A model generated the notes under the pieces. It was given only the letters and a program-made list of their open reading frames with translations. It did not search any database and was not told the origin of the DNA. A stretch of 39,942 bases of DNA from Candidatus Roizmanbacteria bacterium GW2011_GWA2_37_7 (GTDB taxonomy: Bacteria; Patescibacteriota; Microgenomatia; UBA1406; GWC2-37-13). The first letter of the stretch is position 1. Each line of letters opens with the position of its first letter. Below are positions 816 to 25,715 of this stretch, piece after piece. The position numbers were made by a program, and so were the translations under genes. The DNA is taken from positions 1 through 39,942 of the forward strand of contig LBTJ01000002.1 of assembly GCA_000990445.1 (NCBI GenBank). The letters are read 5' to 3'.

Positions 816-876
816 TATTGAAAAACCTAGATACAAATGCTAGTATGTAGCGTATCTATTTTTTCCACTTTTTGAT

Positions 877-2124: not shown

Positions 2125-2132
2125 TAATTAAC

Positions 2133-3194: not shown

Positions 3195-3200
3195 TCTTTC

Positions 3201-4370: not shown

Positions 4371-4419
4371 TTAGCTAAAAATCTTTTTGAAAACAAAAAG
4401 CATGTATAATGGTACAAAT

Positions 4420-5382: not shown

Positions 5383-6491
5383 AAACTCAAAAAAACCTCA
5401 GATTGGCTTTACCGTACTTTGATGCAAAAGAATTACTCGCAGTAAAAAAAGTACTTGATTCGGGATATCTAACACAAGGTCCAAAAGTAGCGGAATTTGA
5501 GCAAACATTAAAAAAATATATTGGAACCCGTCATGCTTTTGCCGTTACTTCTGCGACAACGGCACTACATTTATCGCTTGTCGCGCTTGGAATAGGCCGC
5601 GGGGATGAAGTTCTTGTCCCGGACTTTACATTTCCAGCTTCGGCAAATGTGGTAGTACAGACTGGCGCAAAACCGGTACTAGTTGATATCGATCTGAATA
5701 CATATACCATGAACCTCGAAGACGCGGCGAGAAAGATTACAAAAAAAACAAAGGCTATTATGCCTGTGCACACTTTTGGACTTTCTGCAAATATGAGTCC
5801 TATTCTTAAACTAGCTCGTAATCATGGCCTCTTTGTAATTGAGGATGCTGCTTGCGCTTTAGGAGCGTCTTATTTTGGGAAAATGTGCGGATCACTCGGA
5901 GACACAGGTTGTTTTAGCTTTCATCCAAGAAAAGCGATAACTACCGGGGAGGGAGGGATGATTACAACCAATGACAAAAAACTGGCTGAAAAAATCATTC
6001 TTCTGAGGAGCCATGGGGGAATAAGAAAAAAGGGTAGATTTACTTTTTATGAAGCTGGGTTTAACTATCGAATGACGGATATACAAGCAGCTATTGGAAT
6101 AGTCCAAATGGCTAAATTCGATCGAATTCTTAAAAAGCGTTTAAAACTGGCTAAAATAATGACTGCCGCTCTGAAAAATATTGATGGTGTAACTGTTCCT
6201 TTTATCCCGAATTGGGGTGAACATACATTTCAATCCTATATATTATTACTTGATAATAAAATAAATCGCGATCTTGTCATCCAGAAAATGAAAGCAAAAA
6301 ACATTGAAACAACACTGGGCACATATGCTCTACATGACCAACCGTATTTTCAAAATGCCTACGGATATACAAAAGGTCAATTGCGCAATTCGCATATTGC
6401 ATACAAACAAACACTGGCGCTTCCCTTGCATATGAAAATGGATGAAGGAACCGTTCGTTTAATAATTTCAGCATTAAAAAAATTTTTGTAG
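5379..6491 (+). CDS. DegT/DnrJ/EryC1/StrS-family sugar aminotransferase
   Basis: TSATTALHLSLVALGIGRGDEV, VIEDAACALGASY, CFSFHPRKAITTGEGGMITT (PLP lysine), FNYRMTDIQAAIG; 4-nt ATGA overlap with the upstream gene. Confidence 0.93.
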   Translation: MKTQKNLRLALPYFDAKELLAVKKVLDSGYLTQGPKVAEFEQTLKKYIGTRHAFAVTSATTALHLSLVALGIGRGDEVLVPDFTFPASANVVVQTGAKPVLVDIDLNTYTMNLEDAARKITKKTKAIMPVHTFGLSANMSPILKLARNHGLFVIEDAACALGASYFGKMCGSLGDTGCFSFHPRKAITTGEGGMITTNDKKLAEKIILLRSHGGIRKKGRFTFYEAGFNYRMTDIQAAIGIVQMAKFDRILKKRLKLAKIMTAALKNIDGVTVPFIPNWGEHTFQSYILLLDNKINRDLVIQKMKAKNIETTLGTYALHDQPYFQNAYGYTKGQLRNSHIAYKQTLALPLHMKMDEGTVRLIISALKKFL

Positions 6492-6495
6492 AAAT

Positions 6496-7035
6496 ATGAC
6501 AAAAAAACAACATTGGGCCAGTCATGGGAATGGTAAAGTATCTTCAAAAGACTTTGGCGCATATGGAAAAGGGATTGTAATAGAAGATGACGTGCTTATT
6601 TTTCATCCAGAGTCTATCTTTTTAGGCGATAATATTTATATAGGTCATGGAACTATACTCCATGGATATCACAAAAATAAAATGAATATAGAAAGCGGTA
6701 CATGGATTGGACCTTTTTGCTACTTGCATAGTGCGGGAGGAATTTATATAGGAAAAGACGTCGGAATTGGTCCGGGAGTAAAAATGATTACCTCGCAGCA
6801 TTTAATCGATCGGGGGAACAAAGCGATAATAAAAAATGATGTATCTAAAAAAGAAATAATAATTCAAAACGGCTCAGATATCGGAGTTGGAGCAATTGTT
6901 TTACCAGGGGTTACTATAAATGAAGGTGCTCAAATTGGAGCAGGGGCTGTCGTTGCTGAAGATATCCCCCAGTTTGGCATTGCTGTTGGGGTACCCGCCG
7001 TAACGATTCGTCATAGGAAAGGACATTTGGTATGA
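6496..7035 (+). CDS. Acyltransferase with hexapeptide left-handed beta-helix
   Basis: Hexapeptide repeats (IGHGTILHG, IGKDVGIGPGV, IGVGAIVLPGVTINEGAQIGAGAVV). Confidence 0.85.
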   Translation: MTKKQHWASHGNGKVSSKDFGAYGKGIVIEDDVLIFHPESIFLGDNIYIGHGTILHGYHKNKMNIESGTWIGPFCYLHSAGGIYIGKDVGIGPGVKMITSQHLIDRGNKAIIKNDVSKKEIIIQNGSDIGVGAIVLPGVTINEGAQIGAGAVVAEDIPQFGIAVGVPAVTIRHRKGHLV

Positions 7036-8141
7036 TACCTATTTCTAAACCAACCATCACTAATAAAGAAATAAAATCACTTGTGGATGTTTGTAAATCA
7101 GGTTTGCTTGTACAAGGAGCCAAAGTTGAAGAATTTGAAAATGCTGTTGCAAAACTGTGTGGAGTAAAATATGCAATAGCCCTTAGTAATGGTACGGCTG
7201 CACTTCATACCGCACTTTATGCCGCAGGAATCGGACATGGCGATGAAATAATTACTACTCCTTTCACATTTGTTGCAACTGCAAATGCGATTCTGATGCA
7301 AGGAGCTATTCCTGTATTCGTCGACATTGCACCAGAAACATACAATATGGATCCGTCAAAAATTGAGGAAAAAATTACTAAAAAAACAAAGGCAATATTG
7401 CCGGTCGATCTATATGGACAAATCTACGATGTGGAAGCTCTCCAAAAAATTGCGAACACGCACAAACTGAAGATTATCGAAGATGCGTGTCAATCCATTA
7501 ATGCTTCATATAAGAAGCAAATGGCTGGATCATGTGGTGACGCAGGTTGTTTTTCTTTTTACGCCACAAAAAATATGATGACAGGGGAGGGAGGAATGAT
7601 TGTGACCAATGACAAAAAATTGACAACAATTGCGAAACAATTTAGAAGTCATGGACAACCAGAACATATTCGATACGAATACTTTCACCTCGGATACAAC
7701 TATCGAATGATGGATTTGGTTGCAGCAATAGGACTCGTACAGCTTGATAGACTTGAAACATTTACAAAAAATCGCATAAAAAACGCAGCTTTGCTCACAA
7801 AAGGTCTCGCAGACATTCCTGGGATTATAGTCCCCACTGTAATGAAAGAACATCGGCACGTATTTCATCAGTATACAATTCGTGTTACAAATCCTTTCCC
7901 CTTAGATAGAGATCAAGTCGCACAATACCTTAACAAGCGGGGAATTGGAACCGGTATATACTATCCTAAACCCCTTCATTTGTATTCACATCTTGCAAAA
8001 TACCTATTTAAAAGGGATGTTTTCCCCATTTCAGAACAGTTTTCCCATCAGGTTCTATCTCTACCTGTGCATCCGCTTGTTTCAAGGAAAGATATCCATC
8101 ATATTATTAAAACGATCCGGAATATATATGAAAAAAATTAA
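7032..8141 (+). CDS. DegT/DnrJ/EryC1/StrS-family sugar aminotransferase (WbpE-like position)
   Basis: LSNGTAALHTALYAAGIGHGDEIITTPFTFVATANAIL, IEDACQSINASY, CFSFYATKNMMTGEGGMIVT; ATGA overlap with the upstream gene. Confidence 0.93.
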   Translation: MIPISKPTITNKEIKSLVDVCKSGLLVQGAKVEEFENAVAKLCGVKYAIALSNGTAALHTALYAAGIGHGDEIITTPFTFVATANAILMQGAIPVFVDIAPETYNMDPSKIEEKITKKTKAILPVDLYGQIYDVEALQKIANTHKLKIIEDACQSINASYKKQMAGSCGDAGCFSFYATKNMMTGEGGMIVTNDKKLTTIAKQFRSHGQPEHIRYEYFHLGYNYRMMDLVAAIGLVQLDRLETFTKNRIKNAALLTKGLADIPGIIVPTVMKEHRHVFHQYTIRVTNPFPLDRDQVAQYLNKRGIGTGIYYPKPLHLYSHLAKYLFKRDVFPISEQFSHQVLSLPVHPLVSRKDIHHIIKTIRNIYEKN

Positions 8142-9096
8142 TGTCGCAGTCATCGGTACCGGAAATATGGGACAGCATCACGTCCGGGTATATTCGCGCA
8201 TGAATAATACCAATTTAGTTGCTGTATGTGATCAAGATATCAAACGGGCACAAAAAATAGCACAGGAATATGGATGTACAAGCTATCAACACTATCACGA
8301 TATGATAGCTAGTGAAAAAATCGATGCTGTTTCTATTGCAGTACCTACCTTCTTACATCATAAAATATCACTAGACATGCTTGAGAACGGAAAACATCTA
8401 TTAATCGAGAAACCAATCTCAACAACACTAAAAGAGGCTCAAGATATTATTGATTCTTCAAAAAAGAATAAAAGAATTGTGATGGTTGGACATATTGAAA
8501 GGTTTAATCCAGCGATAATAGAATTAAAAAAACTTATCAGTAAAGATATTTTTGGAAAAATTATAACTCTTAATACAAAACGGGTCGGAGGAGTACCTTC
8601 ACAAATAAAAAATGCAAATGTTATGCTAGATTTGGCAATTCATGATATTGATATTTCAAATTATCTTTTAGATGATCTTCCAAATAAAGTAATGGGATTT
8701 AAATCAAAAAATGTCATTAAGGAACAAGAAGATTCAGCAATCATTTTGTTAAAGTATCGCGACTCAATATCGGTTATTGAAAATAACTGGATTACTCCGG
8801 TTAAAGTCCGCACTCTTGATATTACAGGCACAAAAGCATTCGCCAGATTGGATTATATAAAACAATCATTGTTCCTTTATGCCGATAACTTTAATATACA
8901 AAAGAAGCCTTATTATAACTACAAAGAATTTATTAACGGAACTGCTACAAAAATTAAACAAAAAATACATGTTAAAAAGGCTGAGCCGTTGAAACTTGAA
9001 TTAGAACATTTCATTGATTATGTCATTCATAATAAACAACCGGAAATGGATGCCAAAACCGCTTATAATGTTTTAAATATTGCTCTTAAATTATGA
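8128..9096 (+). CDS. Gfo/Idh/MocA-family oxidoreductase (WbpB-like position); start 8128, not 7945
   Basis: MKKINVAVIGTGNMGQHHVRVY, AVSIAVPTFLHHKISLDMLENGKHLLIEKPISTT; 14-nt overlap with the upstream CDS. Confidence 0.9.
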   Translation: MKKINVAVIGTGNMGQHHVRVYSRMNNTNLVAVCDQDIKRAQKIAQEYGCTSYQHYHDMIASEKIDAVSIAVPTFLHHKISLDMLENGKHLLIEKPISTTLKEAQDIIDSSKKNKRIVMVGHIERFNPAIIELKKLISKDIFGKIITLNTKRVGGVPSQIKNANVMLDLAIHDIDISNYLLDDLPNKVMGFKSKNVIKEQEDSAIILLKYRDSISVIENNWITPVKVRTLDITGTKAFARLDYIKQSLFLYADNFNIQKKPYYNYKEFINGTATKIKQKIHVKKAEPLKLELEHFIDYVIHNKQPEMDAKTAYNVLNIALKL

Positions 9097-9602
9097 CATA
9101 TTTTAAACACCCAACTTCCGAAATATCCGAAAGTGCAATAATAGGGAATAAAACAAAAATCTGGCATTATGTCCAAATTAGAGATAAGGTTTCAATTGGT
9201 TCCGAATGTATTATTGGAAAAAACGTGTATATTGATTTTGAAGTTCATATAGGTAATCGCTGCAAGATTCAAAATAATGTTTCAATATTCCATGGTGTGA
9301 CAATTGAAGACGGAGTATTTATTGGTCCTCATGTCTGCTTTAGCAACGATAAATTTCCAAGAGCAATAAATGAAGATGGCGCATTAAAAACAGAAAATGA
9401 CTGGGCATTATCCAAAACATTGATTAAAAAAGGAGCATCTATTGGAGCAAATTCTACAATTCTGCCAGGAATCACAATAGGCGAATACGCAATGATAGGA
9501 GCCGGAACTGTAGTGACTAAAGATGTTCCTTCGTTTATACTCGTTTATGGTAACCCTGCCAAACCTTACGGTAGGGTAAATAGGGCAGGAAAAAAAATAT
9601 AG
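9093..9602 (+). CDS. Hexapeptide-repeat N-acetyltransferase (WbpD-like)
   Basis: IGNKTKIWHYVQIRDKVSIGSECIIGKNVYIDFEVHIGNRCKIQNNVSIFHGVTIEDGVFIGPHVCFSND; ATGA overlap with the upstream gene. Confidence 0.88.
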   Translation: MTYFKHPTSEISESAIIGNKTKIWHYVQIRDKVSIGSECIIGKNVYIDFEVHIGNRCKIQNNVSIFHGVTIEDGVFIGPHVCFSNDKFPRAINEDGALKTENDWALSKTLIKKGASIGANSTILPGITIGEYAMIGAGTVVTKDVPSFILVYGNPAKPYGRVNRAGKKI

Positions 9603-9604
9603 CG

Positions 9605-12076
9605 ATGATAAGATTCCAATTTAAAAAAAATAGGATTACTAAAAAAAATCAGTTGATTTCTAATTACTATTTTCAACATTTTACATTCTTATGCATAGCT
9701 GTTGTCGTAATTGCTATTGTCTCGTTTATTCCAATTATTAAAACGCACAATTGGTTAGTGATTGGAAACGATTCATTTGTACCCTTGGTACCCGAGAATT
9801 CTTTGGATTTGGTTTATCAATGGATAGATATTGACAATGGATCTTACATTGGCAACAATCATTTAACCTGGATATCAATATTTCTGATTCTAGTAAAAAT
9901 TGGCGGCAATATTTATCAAGTTGCTTTTTTATTTCAATTTCTGATTTTTTTTCTTTCAGGTATAGGTATTTATACAATTTATAATGTATTTAACAAAAAA
10001 AATCCATTATACGGACTTCTTCCCGCGGTTTTTTTTATTCTCTCGCCTCACCTGCTTGATCACATGCCCTATTATCAGGGAACTGTGGGAATTATCTGGA
10101 GTACGCTTGTTTTAATCAAATTCTTAAAGTATAAAAATTTCTCCCCGATAGATGTTTTGCTGTTGAGCATTTCTCTTAGTATCATAACTGATCTGCCAAA
10201 TCCAAAATATCATTTCTTACTCTTTGTATTATTTATTGTTGCGATACTGGTTGCACTCGTAATCAAACTATTACATATTCGGCATATTGTACGAAATCTG
10301 AAATACTTCATACTCATTCTTCTGTGCACAGCATATATTTCAGTACCGCTCATACATTTTGGATATTCGTTTCTTCATACATCTGAGGTTACCATTAATA
10401 CCAGAGCCGGCTATGAAGAATATGGTCAAACATTGGATTATGGAGCGGCCAATATTTATAAAATGGTTACTCTTTCCCATATTACTGATTTCCTTGGTCC
10501 TGAATATAAAAATGTTCCTAAATCATTAATCCTGTTTGTATATTATTCAATCCCTTTTATTGTCTACGGCCTTTCTGTGCTAATAATTCCGAAGCTTGAT
10601 CTTGAAAAAAGGAAGATTACCGTTCTGTATTTGATACTTGGGATGTTTTTCATATTCTTCTCAAAAAGCTCAAATCCACCTTTTGGCTTTATATATGAAT
10701 GGGTATTGTCTTCTTCCCAGTTTTTTGCATTTATGCGTACCTCTGCAGGAATTGTTATCTACGCGGCTGTTTTTTACAGTCTCCTCTTGGGTATAGTAAT
10801 TCAATATTGTGCAGAAAAACAAAGACAAAAAAACCATATAATTTTACTTATTAGTTTAATTATTATTCTGACTGCAGGTTTTCCTGTATGGACAGGAAAA
10901 TACTTCGAAAGAGGATTATCCCATGGTAAAGTTAGGTATGGAATAAAAATTCCTGGAGATTATTTTACAGCCTCGAAATTTATAAAAAATTTTAAACTTG
11001 ACACCAAGCTTGATATATATCCTTATGCTCAAGGTTATCAAATAAATTCTTGGGATTATTATGGATATATCATCTATCCCTGGATATTTGATAAACCGAT
11101 CATTGCATTTAATAAAACTATCCCCCTTGGTGCAATTAATTCGTTTACCAATACGCGATATTTGGTCCATGACAAAAGTATCGGACAGGACAATGATCGC
11201 AATTTTAGATTTAATAGGATGGGCACACGGGTATTTGCTTCAAAAACACTTGATATATACCGGAAAACAGATGCGCTGACTATTCCTCATTTTTATACTC
11301 CCACAACCATACGTGTCGCAGATGATGTCGAAACGTCCATCAAAAAGAGAGGACTGTCTCCTGACGTTGCATTCTATAAGACTTCCGATGTTATGAACTC
11401 TGAAAAATTCACTAGCTTATCTCTTAATCAACCGTTTATAGAATACAAAAAAATAAATCCAACCAAATTTCGGGTGCGTATCCATAAAGCACAGGATACA
11501 TTTCAGCTACTATTTTCCGAAAACTTCCATCCGGACTGGCAACTATATATGGGTAATACGTATGCATATAACCGATCCGATATTATAAAACACTGGGAAA
11601 ATAATAATAAAAAGTATACGGTAAAGCCGCTCAATGAAGCTGACCAGGCGTCAAAAGAAGACGTTGAGAAAATGATTCGGCAGGGGATAATAAGTTCAAT
11701 CGGAGAAGTCGATTCCGCCCCAGAGTTTATTTCAAAACAGTTTCTATATACGGTTCAGAACGACAACCTACAATCCGACCGTTTTTATGAAACCTTTACA
11801 AAGGATGAGCTGACCAGCGGTATCCGACACGCAAAGGTAAACTCTTTTGCAAATAGTTGGATTGTAGACACGTCAACACTGTGCAGGAATGCCGGTATGA
11901 ACTGCATTGAAAATGCTGATGGATCTTATGATTTTGAGCTGATACTTGAATTCTGGCCACAAAAGCTCAAAAATATGACCTATGTTATATCAATTGGTAC
12001 CGGAGGAATGCTTATTCTCATATTGTTATCTTCTACGTTGATACGAGGGTATAAACGACTTCGCAGGAAACCGTAA
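9605..12076 (+). CDS. Large polytopic membrane protein, GT-C/YfhO- or arabinofuranosyltransferase-like, with C-terminal soluble domain
   Basis: 823 aa; about a dozen hydrophobic segments, then a soluble region with LLFSENFHPDWQLYMG and a terminal TM. Confidence 0.55.
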   Translation: MIRFQFKKNRITKKNQLISNYYFQHFTFLCIAVVVIAIVSFIPIIKTHNWLVIGNDSFVPLVPENSLDLVYQWIDIDNGSYIGNNHLTWISIFLILVKIGGNIYQVAFLFQFLIFFLSGIGIYTIYNVFNKKNPLYGLLPAVFFILSPHLLDHMPYYQGTVGIIWSTLVLIKFLKYKNFSPIDVLLLSISLSIITDLPNPKYHFLLFVLFIVAILVALVIKLLHIRHIVRNLKYFILILLCTAYISVPLIHFGYSFLHTSEVTINTRAGYEEYGQTLDYGAANIYKMVTLSHITDFLGPEYKNVPKSLILFVYYSIPFIVYGLSVLIIPKLDLEKRKITVLYLILGMFFIFFSKSSNPPFGFIYEWVLSSSQFFAFMRTSAGIVIYAAVFYSLLLGIVIQYCAEKQRQKNHIILLISLIIILTAGFPVWTGKYFERGLSHGKVRYGIKIPGDYFTASKFIKNFKLDTKLDIYPYAQGYQINSWDYYGYIIYPWIFDKPIIAFNKTIPLGAINSFTNTRYLVHDKSIGQDNDRNFRFNRMGTRVFASKTLDIYRKTDALTIPHFYTPTTIRVADDVETSIKKRGLSPDVAFYKTSDVMNSEKFTSLSLNQPFIEYKKINPTKFRVRIHKAQDTFQLLFSENFHPDWQLYMGNTYAYNRSDIIKHWENNNKKYTVKPLNEADQASKEDVEKMIRQGIISSIGEVDSAPEFISKQFLYTVQNDNLQSDRFYETFTKDELTSGIRHAKVNSFANSWIVDTSTLCRNAGMNCIENADGSYDFELILEFWPQKLKNMTYVISIGTGGMLILILLSSTLIRGYKRLRRKP

Positions 12077-12748
12077 TCAAATATAAAGATTTGTCTCAGG
12101 AGAAAGTAGAGTGACCCCTTCAACACTTTTTAGCTTATTCATTTGCGAAATTATAGTGTCTATCTCGACATTCCTTCTTGAATAAATAGAATATGTATAC
12201 TCTGAACCGTCTTTATTTACAAAAGAAGATTTTAATTTCCAGCTTAAGTTTTTTTCATCCATCAGTCTCGTAACTTCGTCCTGACTGCCTTTTGATCCTG
12301 CCTGAACAACAAGGATATAATCAGTGTTGACATTGAAAAACCCGCCCCATTTCCCCAGAAAATATACTATACCTCCCATAAAAATTGTGGTAATAAATGC
12401 AACCGGATAGTTTTGAGCGCCTGCCGCAAGTCCTATTGCAATAGCCCAGAAAAGAAACGCCATATCAATGCTGTTTTTGATTGCGGTTCGAAATCGGATA
12501 ATTGACAGTGAACCGATAAGACCAAGAGAAAGGGCAATATTGGAGCCGATCGTGATCATGATTGCTGTGACAATGACCGCGATCATAACAAGTGTAAAGG
12601 CAAAAGAACTTTCATACGAAAATCCGCGATTTGTATGTCGATAGACTATTGCTACAACCATACCAAGAATAAACGAAAGCAAGAATGCGGAAACCACAGT
12701 TTGCAGAGGAATATCTGTTGTTAACGAAAGATCAAATAACGTATTCAT
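12077..12748 (-). CDS. DUF4956 domain-containing membrane protein
   Basis: About 4 TM segments with SLGLIGSLSIIRFRTAIKNSIDMAFLFWAIAIGLAAGA, plus a ~75-aa soluble C-terminus. Confidence 0.85.
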   Translation of the reverse strand: MNTLFDLSLTTDIPLQTVVSAFLLSFILGMVVAIVYRHTNRGFSYESSFAFTLVMIAVIVTAIMITIGSNIALSLGLIGSLSIIRFRTAIKNSIDMAFLFWAIAIGLAAGAQNYPVAFITTIFMGGIVYFLGKWGGFFNVNTDYILVVQAGSKGSQDEVTRLMDEKNLSWKLKSSFVNKDGSEYTYSIYSRRNVEIDTIISQMNKLKSVEGVTLLSPETNLYI

Positions 12749-12805
12749 AAGTTCTTATCATAACAAATAATTTGAGTTTAGGTCGCATCATTTTTAATAA
12801 GTTGA

Positions 12806-13534
12806 TTAACGCACGCAAAGCGAACTGTTTATCGCCAAACGCTGTACACTGTAGGCATATTTACTGACAGCCGTCCGTTTCAGGCCATATTTTTTTATAC
12901 AGTAAGTCAGCCAGAACGGAAAATATCCTGAAGTTTTTATTTCCATAATGTTACTGTTTGGCAGAACCGGAATATACGGAGAAAGGGGGATATTCTTCTG
13001 ATAACGCATACATTTTATATCAGAATCAAAGGTAATTCTCACTTTTTTATCACGTCTGCCATAGAATGCGGCACGATTATAATCTATTTGAATAAATGGA
13101 ATAAAATTATGAAGACGGATATAACGCATACTTTGTTCAAAGACTGGATCTGTAATCCGTCCAGTTAATTTATTCTGCAGAGAGGATAAAAGCCTGTCCC
13201 GCGTCTGTTTATCTATTGTTGTTTTATGTTTTGAACCTTTATCATAGAGCTTGTATTTGATCTCGAGTGAAACTGTATCGGTTGTCCCTGACGGATAGGT
13301 GCGTATGCGCAATTTATACCTTTTGGCAAGTCCGTTGATTTTTGTAAGATATGATTGCAGCTCACTATTTTCAAAGTAGATTGAAGAAACAATATAGTGG
13401 TTTTTATCTTGCAATATATGAGGATCAGGAGCTATAAAGCTTCCGATATCCTGCCTGAGATGACGGTACAAGTCATGAGAAACGATATATTTATATTCTT
13501 CACGTACCGGAATATTTTGTGTTTTTCCCTCCAT
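12806..13534 (-). CDS. Polyphosphate polymerase (VTC) domain protein
   Basis: EYKYIV, KLRIRTY (RxR), LEIKYK, IQIDYNRAAFYG...VRITFDSDI, MEIKTSG, SKYAYSVQ: order matches the VTC tunnel-fold motifs. Confidence 0.87.
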   Translation of the reverse strand: MEGKTQNIPVREEYKYIVSHDLYRHLRQDIGSFIAPDPHILQDKNHYIVSSIYFENSELQSYLTKINGLAKRYKLRIRTYPSGTTDTVSLEIKYKLYDKGSKHKTTIDKQTRDRLLSSLQNKLTGRITDPVFEQSMRYIRLHNFIPFIQIDYNRAAFYGRRDKKVRITFDSDIKCMRYQKNIPLSPYIPVLPNSNIMEIKTSGYFPFWLTYCIKKYGLKRTAVSKYAYSVQRLAINSSLCVR

Positions 13535-13549
13535 TTTATTAATAAAATA

Positions 13550-16500
13550 TTATTTTGGAACAACTCCCACAGGTTTACTGATATCCGTCGAATCATACTC
13601 TTTCATACGGGACGCGGTATCTTTTAGCGTCGCATAAGTCCCTTTTGCGGTTGTAAGTTGGCCCTTCAACAAGGATTCCAGCGCATCTCGTTTGCTGACA
13701 CTTTTTTTTGACTCTTTGATAAGTTCTTTCGTCTCTTTTCCAGTCAGCCGGTACTGGGAATTTATGACTTCAATTGATGATAAATAATCCGAATCAAGAA
13801 ACCGCCAGTCGCGCTTGCTGATAGTTTCGAGACCAAAGTCCTGTTTGTTATCTTCAAATAACGTATTATAAACCTTTATATGACCTCCACCAAAAAGCTC
13901 TTTCTTATTATATGCCGCGACTCCTACTGTATTATTTGTCATATTATTGTGATTGAGAATAACCGTAGAATTGTCTTTCACGGCAACACCCATCTGTGTA
14001 TATTCAATAAAATTATTGATAATGGATATATGGGAATCTTCGCCCACACTTATGCCTTTGTCGCCCGACCTCTTGATAAGATTGTCTTTGATTACTAAAT
14101 CAACCGTACCCGAAATATCTATACCGTCATTGCCGTTGTCTTCAAACAGGTTACCGGAAACGATTGATCCCTGTTTGACAAAATCAAGATCCATGGCATC
14201 ATATGAGTTTTCATAAAACCTGCTGTTTTGTATCACCGCTTTCCCGTATTTTATATTTACCGCATCATCGCCGGCTCGCAGGTTGGCGTAGCGGAAAATG
14301 CTGTTTGTGATAGTAACATCACTATAATACCCGGACAGCATGCCCGACGCGTACACTCTGTTTTTGGTTGTTGCATCGTTACCATACTCAAAAATGGTAT
14401 GATCAAAAATGCCGCTTGCATCCTCCTGCACAAGCGCGACCACCCCCCATGGTTTATCAGGATCAATAGGGGTAAATATAATCGGGTCTCCATTTTTTCC
14501 CTTTGCGATAACCTTTCCGTATGAAATAAGCGATGTATTTTTGTCAAATTTGATCTTTGATCCGGGCTGAATCTCAAGAATGATTCCTTTTGGAATAATC
14601 AAATCGGTTGATATGTGTACATCGGAATCTATGAAGGTAAACTTTCCTGTTTCAACTTCTTTGAGTAAAGGATGAGTAAAAGGCGCTTGAGTTGTAACAA
14701 CAGCTGCTTTGGGAGAGGTGAATTGGGTATTTCCCATATTGCGGGTTAATGGTACTATTTGCGTTTCTTGTGTTGCAGGATTTTCTACCTCAACTGAAAT
14801 CGCGGAAAATGGCTCCCCGTCTATAGTTTGCAAATCAATTTCCATAAGTCCCTGCCCCAGATAGATTGGTGTTGCAAATTCATCTTTATAAGTCAGCTTG
14901 GGACTTATGATAACGTCGGTATTAAAAATAATCTCCTGACTGCCGTCAGTTTTTTTCTGAACCGTAAAATCAGCAGACACAAGAGGAATCGTATTCACTT
15001 TTACACTTTGAAATACTTCACCGATCAGACCCGATACAATCAGTCGTTTAATACGTATGCCATGAAAAGAATCAGTTTGTAATAAAATAGTACCTGTACT
15101 GTCGACAAAACCTTTTACTTTCGTCATCTCTATTTTATTATTAAGATATTGTATGTTGCTTTTGAGGATCGAGGGAATCTGGAGATAGGTAACAAAACTA
15201 GGTTTATTACCGTCTCCGACATAATACGTTGTCGTTGGGTCAGCCATAAATTCAGAAATCAATCCTATCAGTTCGGTTTCTTCAAACTTATTAAGCCTCT
15301 GTATTAAAGCGTCGCTGTATTTATAGATAGCGTTGTTTCTCTTATTTCTTACTTCAGGAACTTCGAGAAGCTTAGAAAATAGTTGATTTACATTGAGATA
15401 ATCGTTTGGAAACTCTTTCAAACCCGGTCTTTGCAGATCTCCTACATGCGTATAATTCATGAAGTCCCAGGGGAAAAAATATATACGTCCATCTGCAGGA
15501 TTAATATAAAATACAATATTGTGAAAATCATAATGTGCGGTCCCACTTAAGGAGTAGAGTGCTAATATTTTCGACAAATTGTCAGGATCAAAGTAATATT
15601 TCCAGCTTTTCTCCAGCTCCGGGACATCTTTTTTGATAACAGCCAAAAAATAATCCGCATCGCGGTCGTAGAAACCTTCAAAATCTTTGAGAGTTGAAAG
15701 TATCATCTCTTTCGAGATGGCCTCTGTTGTAAATTCTTTTGGATTTTGATACGGGTCGGTATTGTAGATGTTTGCTTCAGTGAAATTTCTTTTGGCAAGA
15801 AAATACCGGTCAAAATCCTCACTGACATAATAGACACCATGAGATATCCCGTTTATATTGAGTCCGGCAATTTTTCCATCAAGCGCTGGTAAATCAATTG
15901 AGCGCGCCAGCTTATTGACCAAATACTCACCGATATATGCCCGCTTGTCGGGAATATAAAAGAGCAGTTTGTCATTATGCTTAAAATCATCAGTAAAATT
16001 GACAGTATAGGATTTTTTGTCATTTGCCCAGTGATGCGACGTACCGCCGCGATTTTTAATCTTTATGTCATAAGAATTATTCTTATGTGTGAGTCTTGCT
16101 TTGACGGAGGGGAATTGGAAATTGCTGTTATAACGATCTTTACTATCTTCGGGGATAGCGGCAAGAAGTTTGTCATATTCCTTTTGATCAATATTTATGT
16201 CATACCTATCCACCGGCTTTCGCAAGGGTTTCAGACTTTTATTAAAATCTGCGGTAAAAAAATCAACTTTATATGAACTGCATAAATTCCCCGGATTTTG
16301 AAAAAGATAATATTTCAGATTTTTAATAGTATCTGCAGATGTCGGTTGTGAATTGATAAAATAAAATCGTTTTGACGGAGAAATGTCAATTCCCTCAAAA
16401 CCCTTGCTTTGCTCATATATACCTTCTCCTGTGACAAGCAAACCAAATCCCGGAAATTCACATGCGTTTTCATTCTTTTCTACCGTAAAATATGTCACGC

Positions 16501-17572
16501 CGGATAACCCATTTGGGACATCCATGCCGGCAAGATCCATTGTCATTCCGATGGAAGGCTCCGTTATCAATTTGGACAACACGACGGTAAACTCGCTATA
16601 GTTTCCTTTTGCAGTTGATTGCGGTGTATTCTTATCAAAAAAGATAATATTGCAGTAAATACTTCCCTGTGTTTGATTACATTGAAGATAACTTTGTAGT
16701 TTATCTTTGACCCATACTTCTTTTGTGGGTTGCCTTAATCCGGAAGTGTAATAATTTACTCCATCTTTTTCTAGAATGGTAGTCAGCGAGGCATCGCCGG
16801 CAAACACATGTACATTGCCGTGTCTGACAAGCAGAGGATGTACGTCCTTCATCCAGCTGTTTGTGCCGGTATCATTGGCAGGAAACTGAATTTCCCTGAT
16901 ATTGATACCTTCGGATAATTTGGCTTTCGGAACCATCTTTTGCAGATCTTTTTCTGTCAAATCAGGTGCCCAGAACGCATGATGCATTACTAAAATAACC
17001 GGTTTATCTTTCAGTTCCTCCAACTGTTCTTTCAGAAATGCCAGCTGTTTACCCGCTATCCCGACTCCGCCATGCGGATAAGGGGGCGCATCTGTATTCA
17101 TACTATTGAGGACAATAATATTCAGCCCGTCTTTGTCAATATATCTGTAATTTCCGAATTTCTCATAAAAAGACTTTGCTCCTGCATCGTCTTGAATCTC
17201 ATGATTGCCGGGAGAGACAAAAATATTGATGCCATACTTTTTTTCATATTCCTGAACCTTGTCCAATACATTATTTTCAGCGTCACCTCCAAGAAGAAGT
17301 GTGGAAATATTTTTATCATGTATATCTTCTAATATGTAAGTAAACTCGTCCGGATTTGCATAGACATGCCCGGTAAAGGCAAATGATGAGTTTTTCGAAG
17401 AGTATGTATCTTCTCCATTTTTCTGATTACGAACCCCAAGATAAAGAATTGAGAAAATTGCAACTATTAAAATAAAATACTTAAATAAACTGCCTTTAAT
17501 ATATCTGTGAATAATATATTGAACCTTTTTTTCAAATGTTTTATATATAGGATAATATCTCATTAAACTCAT
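13550..17572 (-). CDS. Membrane-anchored fusion: calcineurin-like phosphoesterase - CotH kinase family - right-handed parallel beta-helix (1340 aa)
   Basis: N-terminal TM (FILIVAIFSILYLGV); GGD...SPGNHE...MHH around aa 64-335; CotH pattern VKARLTHKNNSYDIKIKNRGGTSHHWANDKKSYTVNF ... HYDFHNIVFYINPADGRIYFFPWDF around aa 455-815; beta-helix repeats around aa 980-1245. Confidence 0.85.
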   Translation of the reverse strand: MSLMRYYPIYKTFEKKVQYIIHRYIKGSLFKYFILIVAIFSILYLGVRNQKNGEDTYSSKNSSFAFTGHVYANPDEFTYILEDIHDKNISTLLLGGDAENNVLDKVQEYEKKYGINIFVSPGNHEIQDDAGAKSFYEKFGNYRYIDKDGLNIIVLNSMNTDAPPYPHGGVGIAGKQLAFLKEQLEELKDKPVILVMHHAFWAPDLTEKDLQKMVPKAKLSEGINIREIQFPANDTGTNSWMKDVHPLLVRHGNVHVFAGDASLTTILEKDGVNYYTSGLRQPTKEVWVKDKLQSYLQCNQTQGSIYCNIIFFDKNTPQSTAKGNYSEFTVVLSKLITEPSIGMTMDLAGMDVPNGLSGVTYFTVEKNENACEFPGFGLLVTGEGIYEQSKGFEGIDISPSKRFYFINSQPTSADTIKNLKYYLFQNPGNLCSSYKVDFFTADFNKSLKPLRKPVDRYDINIDQKEYDKLLAAIPEDSKDRYNSNFQFPSVKARLTHKNNSYDIKIKNRGGTSHHWANDKKSYTVNFTDDFKHNDKLLFYIPDKRAYIGEYLVNKLARSIDLPALDGKIAGLNINGISHGVYYVSEDFDRYFLAKRNFTEANIYNTDPYQNPKEFTTEAISKEMILSTLKDFEGFYDRDADYFLAVIKKDVPELEKSWKYYFDPDNLSKILALYSLSGTAHYDFHNIVFYINPADGRIYFFPWDFMNYTHVGDLQRPGLKEFPNDYLNVNQLFSKLLEVPEVRNKRNNAIYKYSDALIQRLNKFEETELIGLISEFMADPTTTYYVGDGNKPSFVTYLQIPSILKSNIQYLNNKIEMTKVKGFVDSTGTILLQTDSFHGIRIKRLIVSGLIGEVFQSVKVNTIPLVSADFTVQKKTDGSQEIIFNTDVIISPKLTYKDEFATPIYLGQGLMEIDLQTIDGEPFSAISVEVENPATQETQIVPLTRNMGNTQFTSPKAAVVTTQAPFTHPLLKEVETGKFTFIDSDVHISTDLIIPKGIILEIQPGSKIKFDKNTSLISYGKVIAKGKNGDPIIFTPIDPDKPWGVVALVQEDASGIFDHTIFEYGNDATTKNRVYASGMLSGYYSDVTITNSIFRYANLRAGDDAVNIKYGKAVIQNSRFYENSYDAMDLDFVKQGSIVSGNLFEDNGNDGIDISGTVDLVIKDNLIKRSGDKGISVGEDSHISIINNFIEYTQMGVAVKDNSTVILNHNNMTNNTVGVAAYNKKELFGGGHIKVYNTLFEDNKQDFGLETISKRDWRFLDSDYLSSIEVINSQYRLTGKETKELIKESKKSVSKRDALESLLKGQLTTAKGTYATLKDTASRMKEYDSTDISKPVGVVPK

Positions 17573-17628
17573 TAAATAACCAATAATGTTATAATCTAAA
17601 AGTGATTACATTATACTGTAAAAGCATC

Positions 17629-18153
17629 ATGGGTATCTTTTCTTACTTAAAAAAAATATTGGCACGATATAACCGAGCAAAAGTATTCCTTGTTTTGTTT
17701 ACTATTTTTTTAATCCTAGTCATTAAACAGTTATTTGAGATAAACTTTCTTCTTTGGGTAATTTTGTCTGCCCTCACTACCTATTTTGTTGATACGGAAT
17801 ATAAAAAAAAGAACTATTTACAGTATGGCATCATGCAGCGTAAAGCATTTATATTGCTTATACTGATTGTAAGTATACTTTCTTTAAGGGATGTCAATTG
17901 GAATAGATTCGAATGGTTAAAAACATATCTTGATTCTGGGACGGTGTTATTTCTTTTATTTATAGTTTTCTCTTATTTATTTTCTATAAAAAGATATATT
18001 TTGGTTTCAATTTCACTTTTTGGACTGATGCTTATACCAATCTTTATTCTGATGGAATTTCCCATACTGGCCGATGCCTATGCAGTATTTTCATTTTTAC
18101 TGATTTCCTACCTTATCATTAAAGAAGTATCAACAATTCGAAACATAATTTAA
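17629..18153 (+). CDS. Hypothetical polytopic membrane protein
   Basis: About 5 hydrophobic segments; start at 17629 (MGIFSYLKKIL) is more plausible than 17602. Confidence 0.6.
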   Translation: MGIFSYLKKILARYNRAKVFLVLFTIFLILVIKQLFEINFLLWVILSALTTYFVDTEYKKKNYLQYGIMQRKAFILLILIVSILSLRDVNWNRFEWLKTYLDSGTVLFLLFIVFSYLFSIKRYILVSISLFGLMLIPIFILMEFPILADAYAVFSFLLISYLIIKEVSTIRNII

Positions 18154-18156
18154 TTT

Positions 18157-19260
18157 ATGCAAACCAAACACCATATAACAGTGGTCTTTCTTGATCTTCT
18201 ATGGAGAAGCCTCTATATTATTTCTTCAATCATTTTTCTGTATTTTTTTATATCTTATCTTCTCATTACAGTAAACCCAACAACTCTTTTTATTGACGTG
18301 CAAATATTTACTCCTAAATATCTTCGATATATTCTGGGGGTCGCTTTTCTTTTGGCTGCGTTGGGTTGGTGGATTCTAAAATTGCTACACAAAATCAAAT
18401 TTCAATCTCCTTGGCATCTAAATCGCATGGAAAAAATTTTGACAATAAGTTCTGCGGTAATTTTGGGATATATATACGGCGGGTCTCTTGAGACTCACTC
18501 CGTACTTGCTTTTGTAATGTTTATTGCCTTTTCGATAATATTTACATATTTGATTCCGCAGCTTATCAATTTTTACTCATATCTTAAGATCAGTGACCTA
18601 AAATATTTTCTTATAGTTCTTCCTCTGACAAATAAATTTATTGGCCTTTTGCAAAGATATATTTCTGTTTCAAAAGAAAATATTAATGAACATCAATACA
18701 CTTTTGTCATTACAAAAAAACAAATAAGAATTCTGGCTCTGATGGGTATATCCATAATCTTTATTGTTTTTTTGACTTTAATGATTATTACAGTTGTCTA
18801 CAAATATACGTCAGGTCAAATTATCCGGGAAAATAAACTTAGAAAAACTTTTTATATCTCTTCTGTTGAACCAGAGAATACTACCCCAGGCAGAACTGCA
18901 AAACTAATTGGATATAATTTCGGATTCAAGACTGATAAGAATTATCGAGTTTTGACCGATGACGGTATTATTCTTGAAATTGTAACTTGGGATAAAGATT
19001 TTATTGAATTTATTATTCCTCTCTCGCTCCAAACAGGCGAACATAAAATCTGGATTGTCCGGCCAACAGACGAACTGCACAGGGAACAAGGGTTTAAAAA
19101 AAGTAATCAAATTTCTTTGAAAATCCATTCCAGATTTGCGCTGCTGCCGGATGTGGGAGATAGTGACATCGAAAGAGGAGTAAAGAAGATCAAAAGATAT
19201 CTTATTGAAAAATATCCCAACTATAGTTGGCTTATATTTTTTATCTTGCAATATGAATAA
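18157..19260 (+). CDS. Polytopic membrane protein with IPT/TIG-like Ig domain
   Basis: TM segments, then FYISSVEPENTTPGRTAKLIGYNFGFKTDKNYRVLTDDGIILEIVTWDKDFIEFIIPLSLQTGEHKIWIV. Confidence 0.6.
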   Translation: MQTKHHITVVFLDLLWRSLYIISSIIFLYFFISYLLITVNPTTLFIDVQIFTPKYLRYILGVAFLLAALGWWILKLLHKIKFQSPWHLNRMEKILTISSAVILGYIYGGSLETHSVLAFVMFIAFSIIFTYLIPQLINFYSYLKISDLKYFLIVLPLTNKFIGLLQRYISVSKENINEHQYTFVITKKQIRILALMGISIIFIVFLTLMIITVVYKYTSGQIIRENKLRKTFYISSVEPENTTPGRTAKLIGYNFGFKTDKNYRVLTDDGIILEIVTWDKDFIEFIIPLSLQTGEHKIWIVRPTDELHREQGFKKSNQISLKIHSRFALLPDVGDSDIERGVKKIKRYLIEKYPNYSWLIFFILQYE

Positions 19261-20770
19261 AGCTCTTCAATATATTCTTTTATTCTCTATTATTTTGACC
19301 GGCTTTTGGTTTCGATTCCAGGGAATTCGAGACAATCATTCATTTTGGTCAGATGAAGCATTTGTTGCCACACTGTCACGGGATATTTTGACAGAAAAAC
19401 GTAGTTGGGGGGATGCTTTCTACCAATATGGCTACCAGCGTTTACATCTTATCACAACCACAACGTCGATGAAGCTTTTTGGATTCAATGAATTCGCCGC
19501 CCGACTTCCTCCAGTACTATTTGGCGCGCTCAGTATTATCGCAACATATCTTTTGGCATCGCAGCTCTCAAACCGTGCTGGCGGTATTCTTGCCGCATTT
19601 GTTTTTGCCTTTTCCCAGCTCATGCTTGCCAATGATACGCAGGCCAAGACCTACAGCGCCCTGACGTTCCTGTTCGTTGCGGTGTTGTATTGTTTGCGGC
19701 TTCTTGAGCAAAAGAAAAAACATACGATGATGTTGCATCTGATAATCATTGTTTTGGCCTCGCTGGCGACTCTATTTCATTATTTAGGAATTCTCATCTG
19801 GATTCCATTTTTGATTTATGTCTTATTAACTTACCGTGATACAATTTTCAAACTTGTGAGAAATCCATTGTATGTCCTGATCGGGATAGCGGCTGTAGGA
19901 CTTTTGGGGTATATTTTTCACGCCGGTCAAATTATTGCCGATTTTTTTCAGGGAGAAACGCTGAGTTTATTTCTTTTTCCGGTCAATAACATCACCTATT
20001 TTCGCGAGTTGGTCTGGCGCAATTATGCGTTTCTCTCGCTACCTGCGTTTGTGGGAATGTTTATCGGAATATACGAGAAAAAATATGCATGGTCCGTTTC
20101 GCTTATGCTTTTCCTATTGTTTTATAGCTATCTCTGGATTTTCAGGTCTACCCATAATATTAGATATATCGTCCCTTTTATCGGAATCATTTTTGTCTAT
20201 TTCGGCGTATTCTGGGGAAAGGTCGCTGAAAAACTGTTTCCTAAATATCAATTACTTTTTATTACGATGCTGATCGTCATACTGTATATGGGTGGATATA
20301 AAATAGTTCGCAAGCCCAATGCATATTACTCTCCAAACGCTGATCTTTATGGCGATGTACAGAATGCGGATTATAAAACTTTTTTTTCGATTCTTAAAAA
20401 AAGATATCCTGATTTGTCAAACACAGCTGTATTTACTGATTGGGGAGATACACAACGATGGTATTTGGAGGAAAAACCAATAAATGCGTATTTTATGAAG
20501 CGTTTTATCAATGAAAAGCCCGAACCAAATATTATTGATGGCGTGATGATGTATGGCACTCTTGATCAGTTTCTTGCTGAACAAAAAAAATACCCGAAAG
20601 GACTGCTTGTTGTGGAGGATTGGATAAGTTTTCTTCCTGATGAGATAAAGGAATATGTAAAGGAAAATCTCACCCTCGAGTATCGAGTAGAATCGCTGCC
20701 ACAAGCAGCAGGCGATCACTGGCCACTTGCACTCTACAGCTGGGGTATGGAGGAGGAACAAAACCAATGA
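19253..20770 (+). CDS. GT-C membrane glycosyltransferase (GT39/PMT_2-like)
   Basis: FRFQGIRDNHSFWSDEAFVATLSRDIL, FGFNEFAARLPPVLFGALSIIATYLLA; start 19253 (MNKALQYIL) overlaps the upstream CDS by 8 nt. Confidence 0.8.
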   Translation: MNKALQYILLFSIILTGFWFRFQGIRDNHSFWSDEAFVATLSRDILTEKRSWGDAFYQYGYQRLHLITTTTSMKLFGFNEFAARLPPVLFGALSIIATYLLASQLSNRAGGILAAFVFAFSQLMLANDTQAKTYSALTFLFVAVLYCLRLLEQKKKHTMMLHLIIIVLASLATLFHYLGILIWIPFLIYVLLTYRDTIFKLVRNPLYVLIGIAAVGLLGYIFHAGQIIADFFQGETLSLFLFPVNNITYFRELVWRNYAFLSLPAFVGMFIGIYEKKYAWSVSLMLFLLFYSYLWIFRSTHNIRYIVPFIGIIFVYFGVFWGKVAEKLFPKYQLLFITMLIVILYMGGYKIVRKPNAYYSPNADLYGDVQNADYKTFFSILKKRYPDLSNTAVFTDWGDTQRWYLEEKPINAYFMKRFINEKPEPNIIDGVMMYGTLDQFLAEQKKYPKGLLVVEDWISFLPDEIKEYVKENLTLEYRVESLPQAAGDHWPLALYSWGMEEEQNQ

Positions 20771-23052
20771 AAGCATCAGTCGTCATTGTGACATTCAAGC
20801 GTCCCGGCAAGGCAGTTGAGCTTACGAAAGCTATCCGTAAAGTGCACAAGGATATCGAAATCATTATCGTCGATCAGGAAAACTCATCCGGTATCTCAAA
20901 ATCGGAGCAGGAAAAGGCGCAAATACAATACTTCAATCTTCCCCTGGCAAATATTTCTACTGCCAGAAACAAAGGATGGCAAAATGCTTCAAATGATATA
21001 GTGATTTTTCTTGATGATGATGTTGAGATTACTCCAAAAACAATTGCCGCTCATATTGCTGTATACGATCAGGCGGATATTGTTGGTGTCGCCGGTAGGG
21101 TCATAAACGACGAAGATAATTTGTCGGAAAATACGGGTGTTTTGACAGGCAAAACAAATATTCTTGCCAGCAGTTTTCTTCAGCAGTTTTGGAGTACAAA
21201 AAAACAATACGTTGATTATGTATATGGATGCAATATGTCTTTCAGGAAATCTGCTTTACAAAAAGTCAAAGGGTTCGATCCCTTTTTCAACCGTATTTTT
21301 GACGATGTAGATATCGGAAGACGAATTAAAAAATTCGGCAAAATACTTTTTGAACCTAAAGCCCTTCTTTATCATCATAAAGCAAAATCCGGGGGAACAC
21401 GAACATCAATGAAGGACAAGATGTCTATGATCTACAAAAACTATGGTTATTTTATTGCCAAACACGTATTGTTTCCTTTTTCACTTATAACATTACTTTT
21501 GCGTACTCGGACAGCATTGTACGAAGCGCCTTTTGCCGTAAAAGACCTGGTGAAAGGATATGTATCTTATATTTATCTCCATACATCCGTACAAGTAACT
21601 TTCCTGTCGTTTGCGATCATCGTAATATTGAGATTGTGGAAAGTCGCTGAATTTTTTAGCTTCAACTTTGACGAAGAGTATCAGGCAAGCCTTGCCTGGG
21701 AGCAGGTAAAAAACTTCCATCCTATCTGGATAGGTGTCAGCGCATCAAATATCGGGTATTATCTGGGGCCGGGATTTACATATCTCAATGCTTTTCTTTT
21801 CAAGCTGTCAAACGGGGATCCGGTATCCCTTGCATGGTTTTCAGCACTTTTTGGACTTATCACAACCATAAGCGTATATTACATCACCCGAGAATTATTT
21901 AATAGTAAAGCTGCACTTATTGCAATGACGATCTATGGTGGATCTGCTTTTTTGAATTTTTTTGACCGTAGGTTTTGGAATCCTACTCCGATTCCTTTTA
22001 TAACTCTGTGGCTAGTGTATAGCCTCATTAAGGGTCAATCCAATCATCGCTGGTATATCCTCACCGCATTACTTGTTGGCGCGTCTCTCAATGCTCATCT
22101 TGCGCTCATTTTACTTTTCCCTCTTGTATGTATTTCTATACTTTTCAATGCCAAAAAGATTCAGTTTCCTGTCTGGATAGGGATGGGTATAAGCTATTTT
22201 TTTCTTACACTTCCTTTGTTAATTTTTGATTTTGTTCATAATTTTGACAATTTGCGTGCGCCGCTTCTATTTATTATCAATCGAGGAAGTGGTGAAGGAA
22301 CCCTTTCTTTATCATCAATTACGTCTCATGCCGCTGTTTTTTTTCAAACTTTAGGAAGAATCTGGTTTATGGGTTTTCATACCAATATCCAGGATGAGCA
22401 ATGTCTCGGAGCTCATTGTCTGATCACGCCTGCAAAACCGCTTCTTATTTTAGTTTCCGTGCTGTTACTTGGGTATTATTTTTGGCGAAATCTACGAAAT
22501 AGTAACTCAGCACATATCTATATTCTTTCAGGAATGCTTTTGTATGCTTTGGGTTTTATGTTCTATTCTGGGTATTCAGCTGAATATTATCTTCTTGGAT
22601 TTTTTATATTGTTTGCTGTTTCTGCGGGCTGGATTTTATCAAAAATAAAACCCTTTGTTGTGCTTCTATTATTATCGTTGTTTCTAATTTTCAACAGTTA
22701 TACAGTATTTGCATCAAATCAGGAACAGTACGGACTTGTCACAAGAAAACACCTCATACAAAAAATAATGACCGAAGTTGGAGATAGTCCGTATTCTCTG
22801 GAAACCTATGGAAATGATCCACGTAAATATCATCCCTATGGAGGGTGGAGATTTTTATTTAAAATCTATGGGAAAACACCGACTCAAAGTTTTGCTGATG
22901 AGTTCTTTGGATGGATATATCAAGATGAGATCACAAACAAACCACCAATTCTCCGTGTTGTCATATCTGATACCATTCCGTATAAGTCGAATTTTTCACC
23001 ATTAAAGACATTTCATGAAGGGACCTATTATGGCTATATATTTAAAATATAA
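20767..23052 (+). CDS. GT2 glycosyltransferase fused to a GT-C (GT39-like) membrane domain
   Basis: N-terminal GT2: MKASVVIVTFKRP, VIFLDDDVEITP, GCNMSFRKSALQKVKGFDPFF, DDVDIGRRI; C-terminal polytopic domain: LRLWKVAEFFSFNFDEEYQASLAWEQ. Confidence 0.82.
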   Translation: MKASVVIVTFKRPGKAVELTKAIRKVHKDIEIIIVDQENSSGISKSEQEKAQIQYFNLPLANISTARNKGWQNASNDIVIFLDDDVEITPKTIAAHIAVYDQADIVGVAGRVINDEDNLSENTGVLTGKTNILASSFLQQFWSTKKQYVDYVYGCNMSFRKSALQKVKGFDPFFNRIFDDVDIGRRIKKFGKILFEPKALLYHHKAKSGGTRTSMKDKMSMIYKNYGYFIAKHVLFPFSLITLLLRTRTALYEAPFAVKDLVKGYVSYIYLHTSVQVTFLSFAIIVILRLWKVAEFFSFNFDEEYQASLAWEQVKNFHPIWIGVSASNIGYYLGPGFTYLNAFLFKLSNGDPVSLAWFSALFGLITTISVYYITRELFNSKAALIAMTIYGGSAFLNFFDRRFWNPTPIPFITLWLVYSLIKGQSNHRWYILTALLVGASLNAHLALILLFPLVCISILFNAKKIQFPVWIGMGISYFFLTLPLLIFDFVHNFDNLRAPLLFIINRGSGEGTLSLSSITSHAAVFFQTLGRIWFMGFHTNIQDEQCLGAHCLITPAKPLLILVSVLLLGYYFWRNLRNSNSAHIYILSGMLLYALGFMFYSGYSAEYYLLGFFILFAVSAGWILSKIKPFVVLLLLSLFLIFNSYTVFASNQEQYGLVTRKHLIQKIMTEVGDSPYSLETYGNDPRKYHPYGGWRFLFKIYGKTPTQSFADEFFGWIYQDEITNKPPILRVVISDTIPYKSNFSPLKTFHEGTYYGYIFKI

Positions 23053-24253
23053 AGGAAGTTTAATTGCGGTATTGATTTTAATTCTGCTGGGGATCCTCCA
23101 AATTCACAATGCATTTTTTCATCCCATAACTCGGGGTTTTGATGCTGATGCACATATCGAATACATCAAATACATTCAAAACACAAAATCACTTCCAATT
23201 ATTTTTGAAGGATGGCAGTATTATCAGGCACCATTGTATTATCTCTTGGGGGTATTCATGGCGCAATTTATTTATCTGAAATTTTTCGGTGTATGTTTGT
23301 ACTTCTTATTATTAATACTCGCTTATAAACTATATAAAAATCAATTTCGTAAGGCAAACCAAAATTTTTTGATTCTCGGGGTTTTGTTTATTGCCACACT
23401 TCCCGTTTTGCTCTACCAGTCAATTTCAATAGGAAATGAATTTTTATCTATGGTTTTGATTTCTTTAGCTCTTATTTTTTATCATATGAAAAAAATAAAT
23501 ACCGTCAAAACTGCACTCGCCCTTGGAGTTTTATTGGGACTTGCGATAGCAGTAAAAGCTACCGCATTTGTATTGGTTGCAGGCATTTTTCTGGATTTTA
23601 TTATTTCTCATAAAGATTTTATAGCAAAAATTAAATCATTTGGACTGGTACTCTACGCAATGATAGGGATCGGTGGGATGCATTATATTACAAATTTTAT
23701 CTATTATGGAAAACTGCTTGCCGCCCCCGATAACTTTCCCCAATATTTTTCATTTCTTCAGCCAGTCAGTCCGAGAAATTTTGAGTTTTTTACTACTATG
23801 AAAGGATTTTTTACTATGGATTTATTCCAGTCACATCACTACTCATTTTTATCGGGTACGTATTTTTCATGGTTCTATGATGGTCATAATATTGTGGTTC
23901 CGGTGCAAGAATTTTCAAAAGCTGGAACGATGCTTATCTTTATGTCGTTTCCAATATTTTTTCTCATGGTGTTTGGCTTTATCCAAACCGTCAAGCATCT
24001 CAATATTCATAACAGAATCTTCATCCTCTACACAGTATTACTTTTTGGAAGCTATATACTTTATAATTTCCACCTCCCATATTTTTCCACAGTCAAAGGA
24101 TCATTTATCGCAAGTCTCGCTTTACCTGCTGGTTATTTTTTTCTGAAAGGATTTGATCGGTTTCAAAAATATTCTGGAGTGGTATCTCTATACTTTCTAA
24201 TCTATAGCCTGATACTTGTGAAGCATTTTTGGATCTTGGATTGGTGGTATTAG
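23030..24253 (+). CDS. Polytopic membrane protein, GT-C-like
   Basis: About 10 hydrophobic segments; luminal FDADAHIEYIKYI; start 23030 (MAIYLKYKG) preferred. Confidence 0.6.
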   Translation: MAIYLKYKGSLIAVLILILLGILQIHNAFFHPITRGFDADAHIEYIKYIQNTKSLPIIFEGWQYYQAPLYYLLGVFMAQFIYLKFFGVCLYFLLLILAYKLYKNQFRKANQNFLILGVLFIATLPVLLYQSISIGNEFLSMVLISLALIFYHMKKINTVKTALALGVLLGLAIAVKATAFVLVAGIFLDFIISHKDFIAKIKSFGLVLYAMIGIGGMHYITNFIYYGKLLAAPDNFPQYFSFLQPVSPRNFEFFTTMKGFFTMDLFQSHHYSFLSGTYFSWFYDGHNIVVPVQEFSKAGTMLIFMSFPIFFLMVFGFIQTVKHLNIHNRIFILYTVLLFGSYILYNFHLPYFSTVKGSFIASLALPAGYFFLKGFDRFQKYSGVVSLYFLIYSLILVKHFWILDWWY

Positions 24254-25656: not shown

Positions 25657-25715
25657 AGCAGAAAAAATCTCAATTTTCGTATTATACTGTCATTGTAATA
25701 GATTTTATTTACGAT

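Follow-up and report, generated by a model that had tools for sequence, protein, structure and literature searches.

Gene organization of the cassette and its flanks

The window, i.e. the whole stretch of DNA analysed here, is one complete contig of 39,942 bases from a genome of 0.96 Mb, which comprises 79 contigs and is estimated to be ~85% complete. Three intact open reading frames (ORFs) on the minus strand, at 12077-17572, encode DUF4956, VTC and CotH proteins and are separated by intergenic gaps of 57 and 15 nt, just as the original prediction described them. The family names given there are also correct, since all three proteins score above the curated Pfam cut-offs. The features are listed below.

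12077..12748, minus strand: DUF4956 membrane protein, 223 aa (Pfam PF16316, E 2e-17)
12806..13534, minus strand: VTC-domain protein, 242 aa, soluble, putative polyphosphate polymerase (Pfam PF09359, E 3e-36)
13550..17572, minus strand: membrane-anchored surface protein, 1340 aa (Pfam PF00149, PF08757, PF13229; hydropathy)
17432..17488, minus strand: N-terminal membrane anchor of the surface protein, residues 29-47 (hydropathy 2.32 over 19 residues)
16967..17359, minus strand: calcineurin-like phosphoesterase-like (Metallophos-like) domain, residues 72-202 (Pfam PF00149, E 3e-7; motifs)
15311..16060, minus strand: CotH kinase domain, residues 505-754 (Pfam PF08757, E 9e-16; aligns to B. cereus CotH 5jd9)
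13838..14614, minus strand: right-handed beta-helix, residues 987-1245 approximately (invariant residues; confident model region; Foldseek)
201..9602, plus strand: flanking glycan genes (Pfam)
9605..12076, plus strand: large multi-TM protein, 823 aa, convergent with the cassette (ORF; Pfam scan)
17602..26519, plus strand: divergent flank with small multi-TM proteins, then PMT-like and GT2 glycosyltransferases (Pfam; hydropathy)

According to Pfam, the flanking glycan genes encode methyltransferases, epimerases, GT4, DegT aminotransferases, a GFO/IDH oxidoreductase and hexapeptide acyltransferases. The 823-aa multi-TM protein matched no Pfam family. One minus-strand ORF lies inside the otherwise plus-strand divergent flank, and scans for promoters and terminators gave little above chance. 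Elsewhere in the window, a galactose-1-phosphate uridylyltransferase is encoded at 32387-33285 by two overlapping ORFs, one for the N-terminal and one for the C-terminal part, which suggests a frameshift or an assembly error; its neighbours are genes for galactokinase and aldose epimerase. At 34275-35278, a gene for a DUF6922 protein is followed by one for an AbiEii-type nucleotidyltransferase, an arrangement resembling a type IV toxin-antitoxin pair.

The setting in a glycan locus, which had also been claimed, is borne out by a comparison with other regions. Glycan-type genes make up 12.8% of the cassette-flanking ORFs versus 2.3% elsewhere, about six times as many (p 9e-8), the controls being 20 regions, mostly from the same genomes, at hand-picked positions rather than from a formal random draw. 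Near several cassettes, no glycan gene was detected. Among the annotated plasmid copies, one lies in an exopolysaccharide cluster and one beside a glycosyltransferase.

Sequence and structural features of the three proteins

The VTC protein scores 125.5 bits against PF09359 (cut-off 23), and a profile built from 17 VTC members of the phylum matched the yeast Vtc4 structures at E 2e-22. The motifs RxR, ExK, MEIK and SKY, which had been read as kept, are present, with R76, R78, E91, K93, E198, K200, S224 and K225 all invariant. In the alignment to Vtc4, none of the active-site basic residues is lost: Vtc4 K200, R264, R266, K281, R361, R373, E426 and S457/K458 correspond to K15, R76, R78, K93, R154, R166, E198 and S224/K225 of the window protein. 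The numbering of R264, R266, E426 and K458 follows published papers, and K200, K281, R361, R373 and S457 are placed tentatively by residue spacing. All checked tunnel residues are kept in the aligned members covering them (one row is without the N-terminus, and conservation was counted among the rows covering each position) as well as in 59 further sequences, mostly from Firmicutes. Vtc4 is inactivated by R264A/R266A/E426N, and its K458 is catalytic; these residues are kept here as R76, R78, E198 and K225.

In hydrolytic tunnel enzymes, an acidic patch forms a second metal site that needs three Glu, whereas Vtc4 is basic there (PMC4641920). Three of the four patch positions were mapped in the window VTC: R11 and K200 are basic as in Vtc4, and E13 is acidic as in the hydrolases. 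Glu13, within RxExK, is invariant in bacterial VTCs; hydrolytic tunnel enzymes have Glu here too, and yeast Vtc4 has Thr. Because two of the three positions are basic and one is Glu, the sequence leans to a polymerase rather than a hydrolase and leaves the choice undecided. For a polymerase, the product may be polyphosphate (polyP).

As in the yeast VTC complex (Vtc4; PMC9911596), the tunnel-fold polymerase residues are conserved and a membrane partner is encoded alongside. Unlike in yeast, the catalytic domain forms a soluble protein of its own: the VTC domain is the only one found by Pfam in the 242 residues, and SPX is absent. A literature search returned no activity shown for any prokaryotic VTC protein, and S. 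intermedius showed no phenotype under the conditions tested when its VTC gene was deleted (PMC12345266). Among the cassette-bearing genomes tested, PPK1 is absent from 27 of 27, and PPK2 gave only one weak, broken match. Should the VTC protein produce polyP, these genomes would have no other known synthase family.

The DUF4956 protein scores 63.8 bits against PF16316 (cut-off 30.6). Hydropathy and the AlphaFold2 model (mean pLDDT 85, 42 sequences) agree on five TM-length helices, rather than the four counted previously, followed by a C-terminal ACT/ferredoxin-like domain. The protein carries a conserved motif, GxLSIIRFRTAIK, with R85, F86, R87 and K91 invariant. A Foldseek search with the model returned ACT domains and the MgtC C-terminal domain, only the ACT-like domain being matched, and there is a weak MgtC/SapB profile match. 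The sequence profile and fold searches gave no sign of a polyP channel, and Vtc1 showed no sequence match to DUF4956 and was absent among the fold matches listed. Passage or export of the VTC product by DUF4956 is conceivable, and a regulatory role is equally open.

The 1340-aa surface protein consists, in this order, of one N-terminal TM helix, the phosphoesterase-like domain, the CotH kinase domain and the right-handed beta-helix. It had been described as a surface-type CotH fusion; a membrane-anchored, extracytoplasmic protein is indeed predicted, and what that description missed were the phosphoesterase-like domain at the N-terminus and the beta-helix at the C-terminus. The former scores 31.5 bits against Metallophos PF00149 (cut-off 21.5 bits) and keeps GD, GNHE and HH, without the first-motif Asp and the final GHxH. 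Phosphoesterase activity is doubtful because these two elements are missing. The missing metal ligands weaken the case for a working phosphatase, and the domain is possibly inactive. In G007, a family relative, the locus (L005) has the same fusion and gene order as the window, with greater motif loss. In G113 (L006), a more distant class relative, the phosphoesterase-like protein is a gene of its own (9983-11089) between the VTC and CotH-beta-helix genes. The profile search found this domain in the window, L005 and L006 only.

The kinase residues K519/K520, E585, H680, D682, N685 and D703 (Lys, Glu, catalytic Asp, Asn and metal Asp) are kept in the window CotH and also in most CotH relatives. 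The Patescibacteria are not known to form spores. The window copy shares the K, E, HxD..N and WD elements with the Bacillus CotH spore-coat kinase (PDB 5jd9/5jda) and, unlike it, sits in a membrane-anchored multi-domain surface protein. Two CotH-beta-helix relatives, at 11022-13601 of L006 and 9147-11432 of L039, are without the metal-binding Asp (D703) and keep the beta-helix ladder; judging from their sequences, they are possible pseudokinases. Catalytic residues are gone from some CotH relatives, so that the essential activity may be one other than the kinase.

Conservation within the surface protein is highest in the beta-helix rather than in the kinase: of the 23 residues invariant over 13 sequences, 19 fall within the beta-helix and 4 within the CotH domain. 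The invariant Asp/Lys residues at 1103, 1128, 1152, 1172, 1200 and 1224 are spaced by 20-28 residues, as would be expected for a charged ladder along one face of the helix. In the AlphaFold2 model (three sequences), the CotH region is poor and the beta-helix region confident; therefore, the latter alone was used. Its closest solved folds in Foldseek, apart from CotH, are the alginate epimerase AlgG and PL6 lyases, with low global TM-scores (the rest of the model is poor). Such a fold would support a polysaccharide-facing role, catalysis not being implied. None of the Firmicutes cassettes examined showed a beta-helix, which is thus not the common core.

Distribution of the cassette and its relation to Pel

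Among 381 Patescibacteria genomes, VTC is found in 28, DUF4956 in 27, CotH in 27 and all three families in 23. VTC and DUF4956 occur together in 25 genomes versus ~2 expected (Fisher p about 1e-33), and all 25 pairs share a contig and a strand and lie no more than 4 kb apart. DUF4956 and CotH also co-occur in 25 genomes (p 1e-34), and VTC and CotH in 23, in 20 of them within 6 kb. The co-occurrence of the three families, as previously suggested, is thus far beyond chance, and the neighbourhood counts rule out chance adjacency. VTC-DUF4956 is the tightest pair; no CotH gene is adjacent in some genomes, e.g. G221, G267 and G393. Among 14 control genomes, the same three were matched by VTC and by DUF4956. 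The VTC gene is patchy within the genus, being present in 2 of 7 genomes, the window genome included. Pairwise identities of the parts correlate with r of 0.70-0.83 (Mantel p <= 0.0005), a correlation that still includes shared genome ancestry.

A wider sample of 35 genomes, found through DUF4956 and hence biased to Firmicutes and DUF4956-bearing loci, held a complete trio in 18 of 35 loci according to our own profiles and the locus DNA. In the Firmicutes loci L070, L077, L082, L083, L089, L096 and L106, a CotH protein of ~1,060-1,110 aa is encoded upstream of DUF4956 and the VTC profile is empty between the two; a divergent VTC possibly lies there. A phage or plasmid origin of the trio was rejected: VTC and DUF4956 have no PHROG family, and only two plasmid records matched DUF4956. 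VTC homologues of 26-28% identity are present in four unannotated faecal 'Bacteriophage sp.' records (MT836222, MT835527, MT837266 and MT838813), which may be bacterial contamination.

The trio has already been published as a group of accessory genes in Gram-positive pel operons (PMC7112168, PMC12345266); streptococci, clostridia and bifidobacteria carry it next to pelDEADAFG. The same three families are contiguous in the accessory genes cotH-PPP-DUF4956(-DUF4832) (PMC7112168), in S. intermedius SIR_1594-1593-1592 (PMC12345266) and in the window; what they share is a CotH that is secreted, a polymerase of the VTC type and a membrane protein carrying an ACT domain at its C-terminus. The window trio differs in its ultra-small Patescibacteria host, in not being contiguous with pelDEADAFG, and in its CotH, which is fused to the phosphoesterase-like domain and beta-helix where the pel-operon CotH has FN3 instead. 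In S. intermedius, Pel decreases when the CotH gene is deleted and increases when the DUF4956 gene is deleted; aggregation drops in either case (PMC12345266).

According to a 2025 paper, the synteny of the trio was not found outside Pel loci. The PelG profile, the sole Pel marker that we scored, gave no match in the window genome (85% complete) or among the window ORFs scanned with Pfam, and Pel membership of this trio was therefore rejected for the window genome. PelG is over the cut-off in 0 of 28 other cassette-bearing Patescibacteria, some of whose cassettes are partial, with two weak partial matches. Within the DUF4956-found sample, it is over the cut-off in 2 of 35 genomes, in one of which, Exiguobacterium algae, it lies beside the cassette, and it falls short of the cut-off in 16 of the 18 genomes with a complete trio. 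We think that the trio is mostly Pel-independent and that, with PelG mostly missing from cassette genomes, the 2025 statement is too narrow.

An earlier published example, C. perfringens NELoc-2, has no Pel gene listed (PMC2879425). Both this locus and a Planococcus maritimus plasmid locus resemble the window in having VTC, a membrane protein, CotH and a glycosyltransferase, again with no Pel gene listed; the NELoc-2 membrane protein, annotated 'tubulin' in 2010, is most likely DUF4956. They differ in a HEAT-repeat protein and a single GT2-type synthase, and no beta-helix fusion is known from them.

Proposed role of the cassette and alternative interpretations

We favour, tentatively and with slightly less than even confidence, the interpretation that the trio represents a conserved envelope-phosphate module, in a form independent of Pel, that serves secreted or surface polysaccharides. 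The conserved neighbourhood, the glycan context, the VTC residues, the kinase residues of the window copy, the topology and the near absence of other polyP synthases point to it. In the cytoplasm, the VTC protein would polymerise the gamma-phosphate of ATP into a phosphate chain. DUF4956, with its ACT domain, would dock VTC and pass or regulate the product at the membrane. On the outer side, the anchored CotH protein would use its beta-helix (proteins that act on polysaccharides often have this type of fold) to hold a surface glycan, and the kinase domain would phosphorylate the held glycan or a glycoprotein, changing the retention and adhesion of the surface layer. Phosphotransfer by the CotH domain, its phosphate donor and a glycan substrate are what we infer from the protein features above.

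It is unlikely, in our estimate, that the polyP stays inside the cell, with VTC and DUF4956 as a minimal cytoplasmic synthase for storage or osmotic purposes, the ACT partner sensing a metabolite and CotH being merely a co-regulated, spore-coat-like surface protein kinase. A substitute synthase would be useful because PPK1 is missing in the cassette genomes, the ACT-like C-terminus is a typical regulatory fold, and VTC-DUF4956 pairs do occur without an adjacent CotH. However, CotH accompanies VTC in 23 of 28 genomes, adjacently in 20, the context is one of glycan genes, and the published phenotypes concern polysaccharide amount and aggregation (PMC12345266). We give a similarly small chance to a regulatory system free of any phosphopolymer, in which VTC would consume or hydrolyse (poly)phosphate or a nucleotide signal and an MgtC-like DUF4956 would control polysaccharide synthesis. 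Here the invariant Glu13, the MgtC matches by profile and fold, the rise of Pel upon loss of the S. intermedius DUF4956 gene (PMC12345266) and the two-component system genes that recur near many Firmicutes copies, as identified by reading the sequences, would all fit, but a hydrolase metal-2 site needs three Glu and two of its positions are basic.

The conservation of the beta-helix raises the question of whether this part does the chemistry, as an epimerase or lyase of the secreted polysaccharide, with the CotH and phosphoesterase-like domains as degenerate phosphate-binding accessories. The Asp/Lys ladder with its share of invariant residues, the AlgG and PL6 neighbours, the metal-binding Asp lost in L006 and L039 and the degenerate phosphoesterase motifs, more so in L005, are in its favour. 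We nevertheless consider it distinctly improbable, given that the window copy and most relatives keep the kinase residues and that the Firmicutes cassettes examined gave no beta-helix. An extension of the envelope-phosphate module is very unlikely in our view: PPK1-less ultra-small bacteria would make polyP with VTC and pass it via DUF4956, and the surface CotH would use this exported polyP, not ATP, on the glycan held by the beta-helix. If true, it would describe a kinase outside the cell that is supplied with an energised donor of its own.

A trio known in one setting, Pel, is here extended to a new setting with a new domain architecture. So far seen as a Pel appendage, it mostly exists independently of Pel and recurs as a unit across distant phyla. 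It reaches PPK1-less genomes near 1 Mb, which turns it into a general question on envelope phosphate chemistry: what does the bacterial VTC enzyme produce, and from where does an extracellular kinase obtain its phosphate donor?
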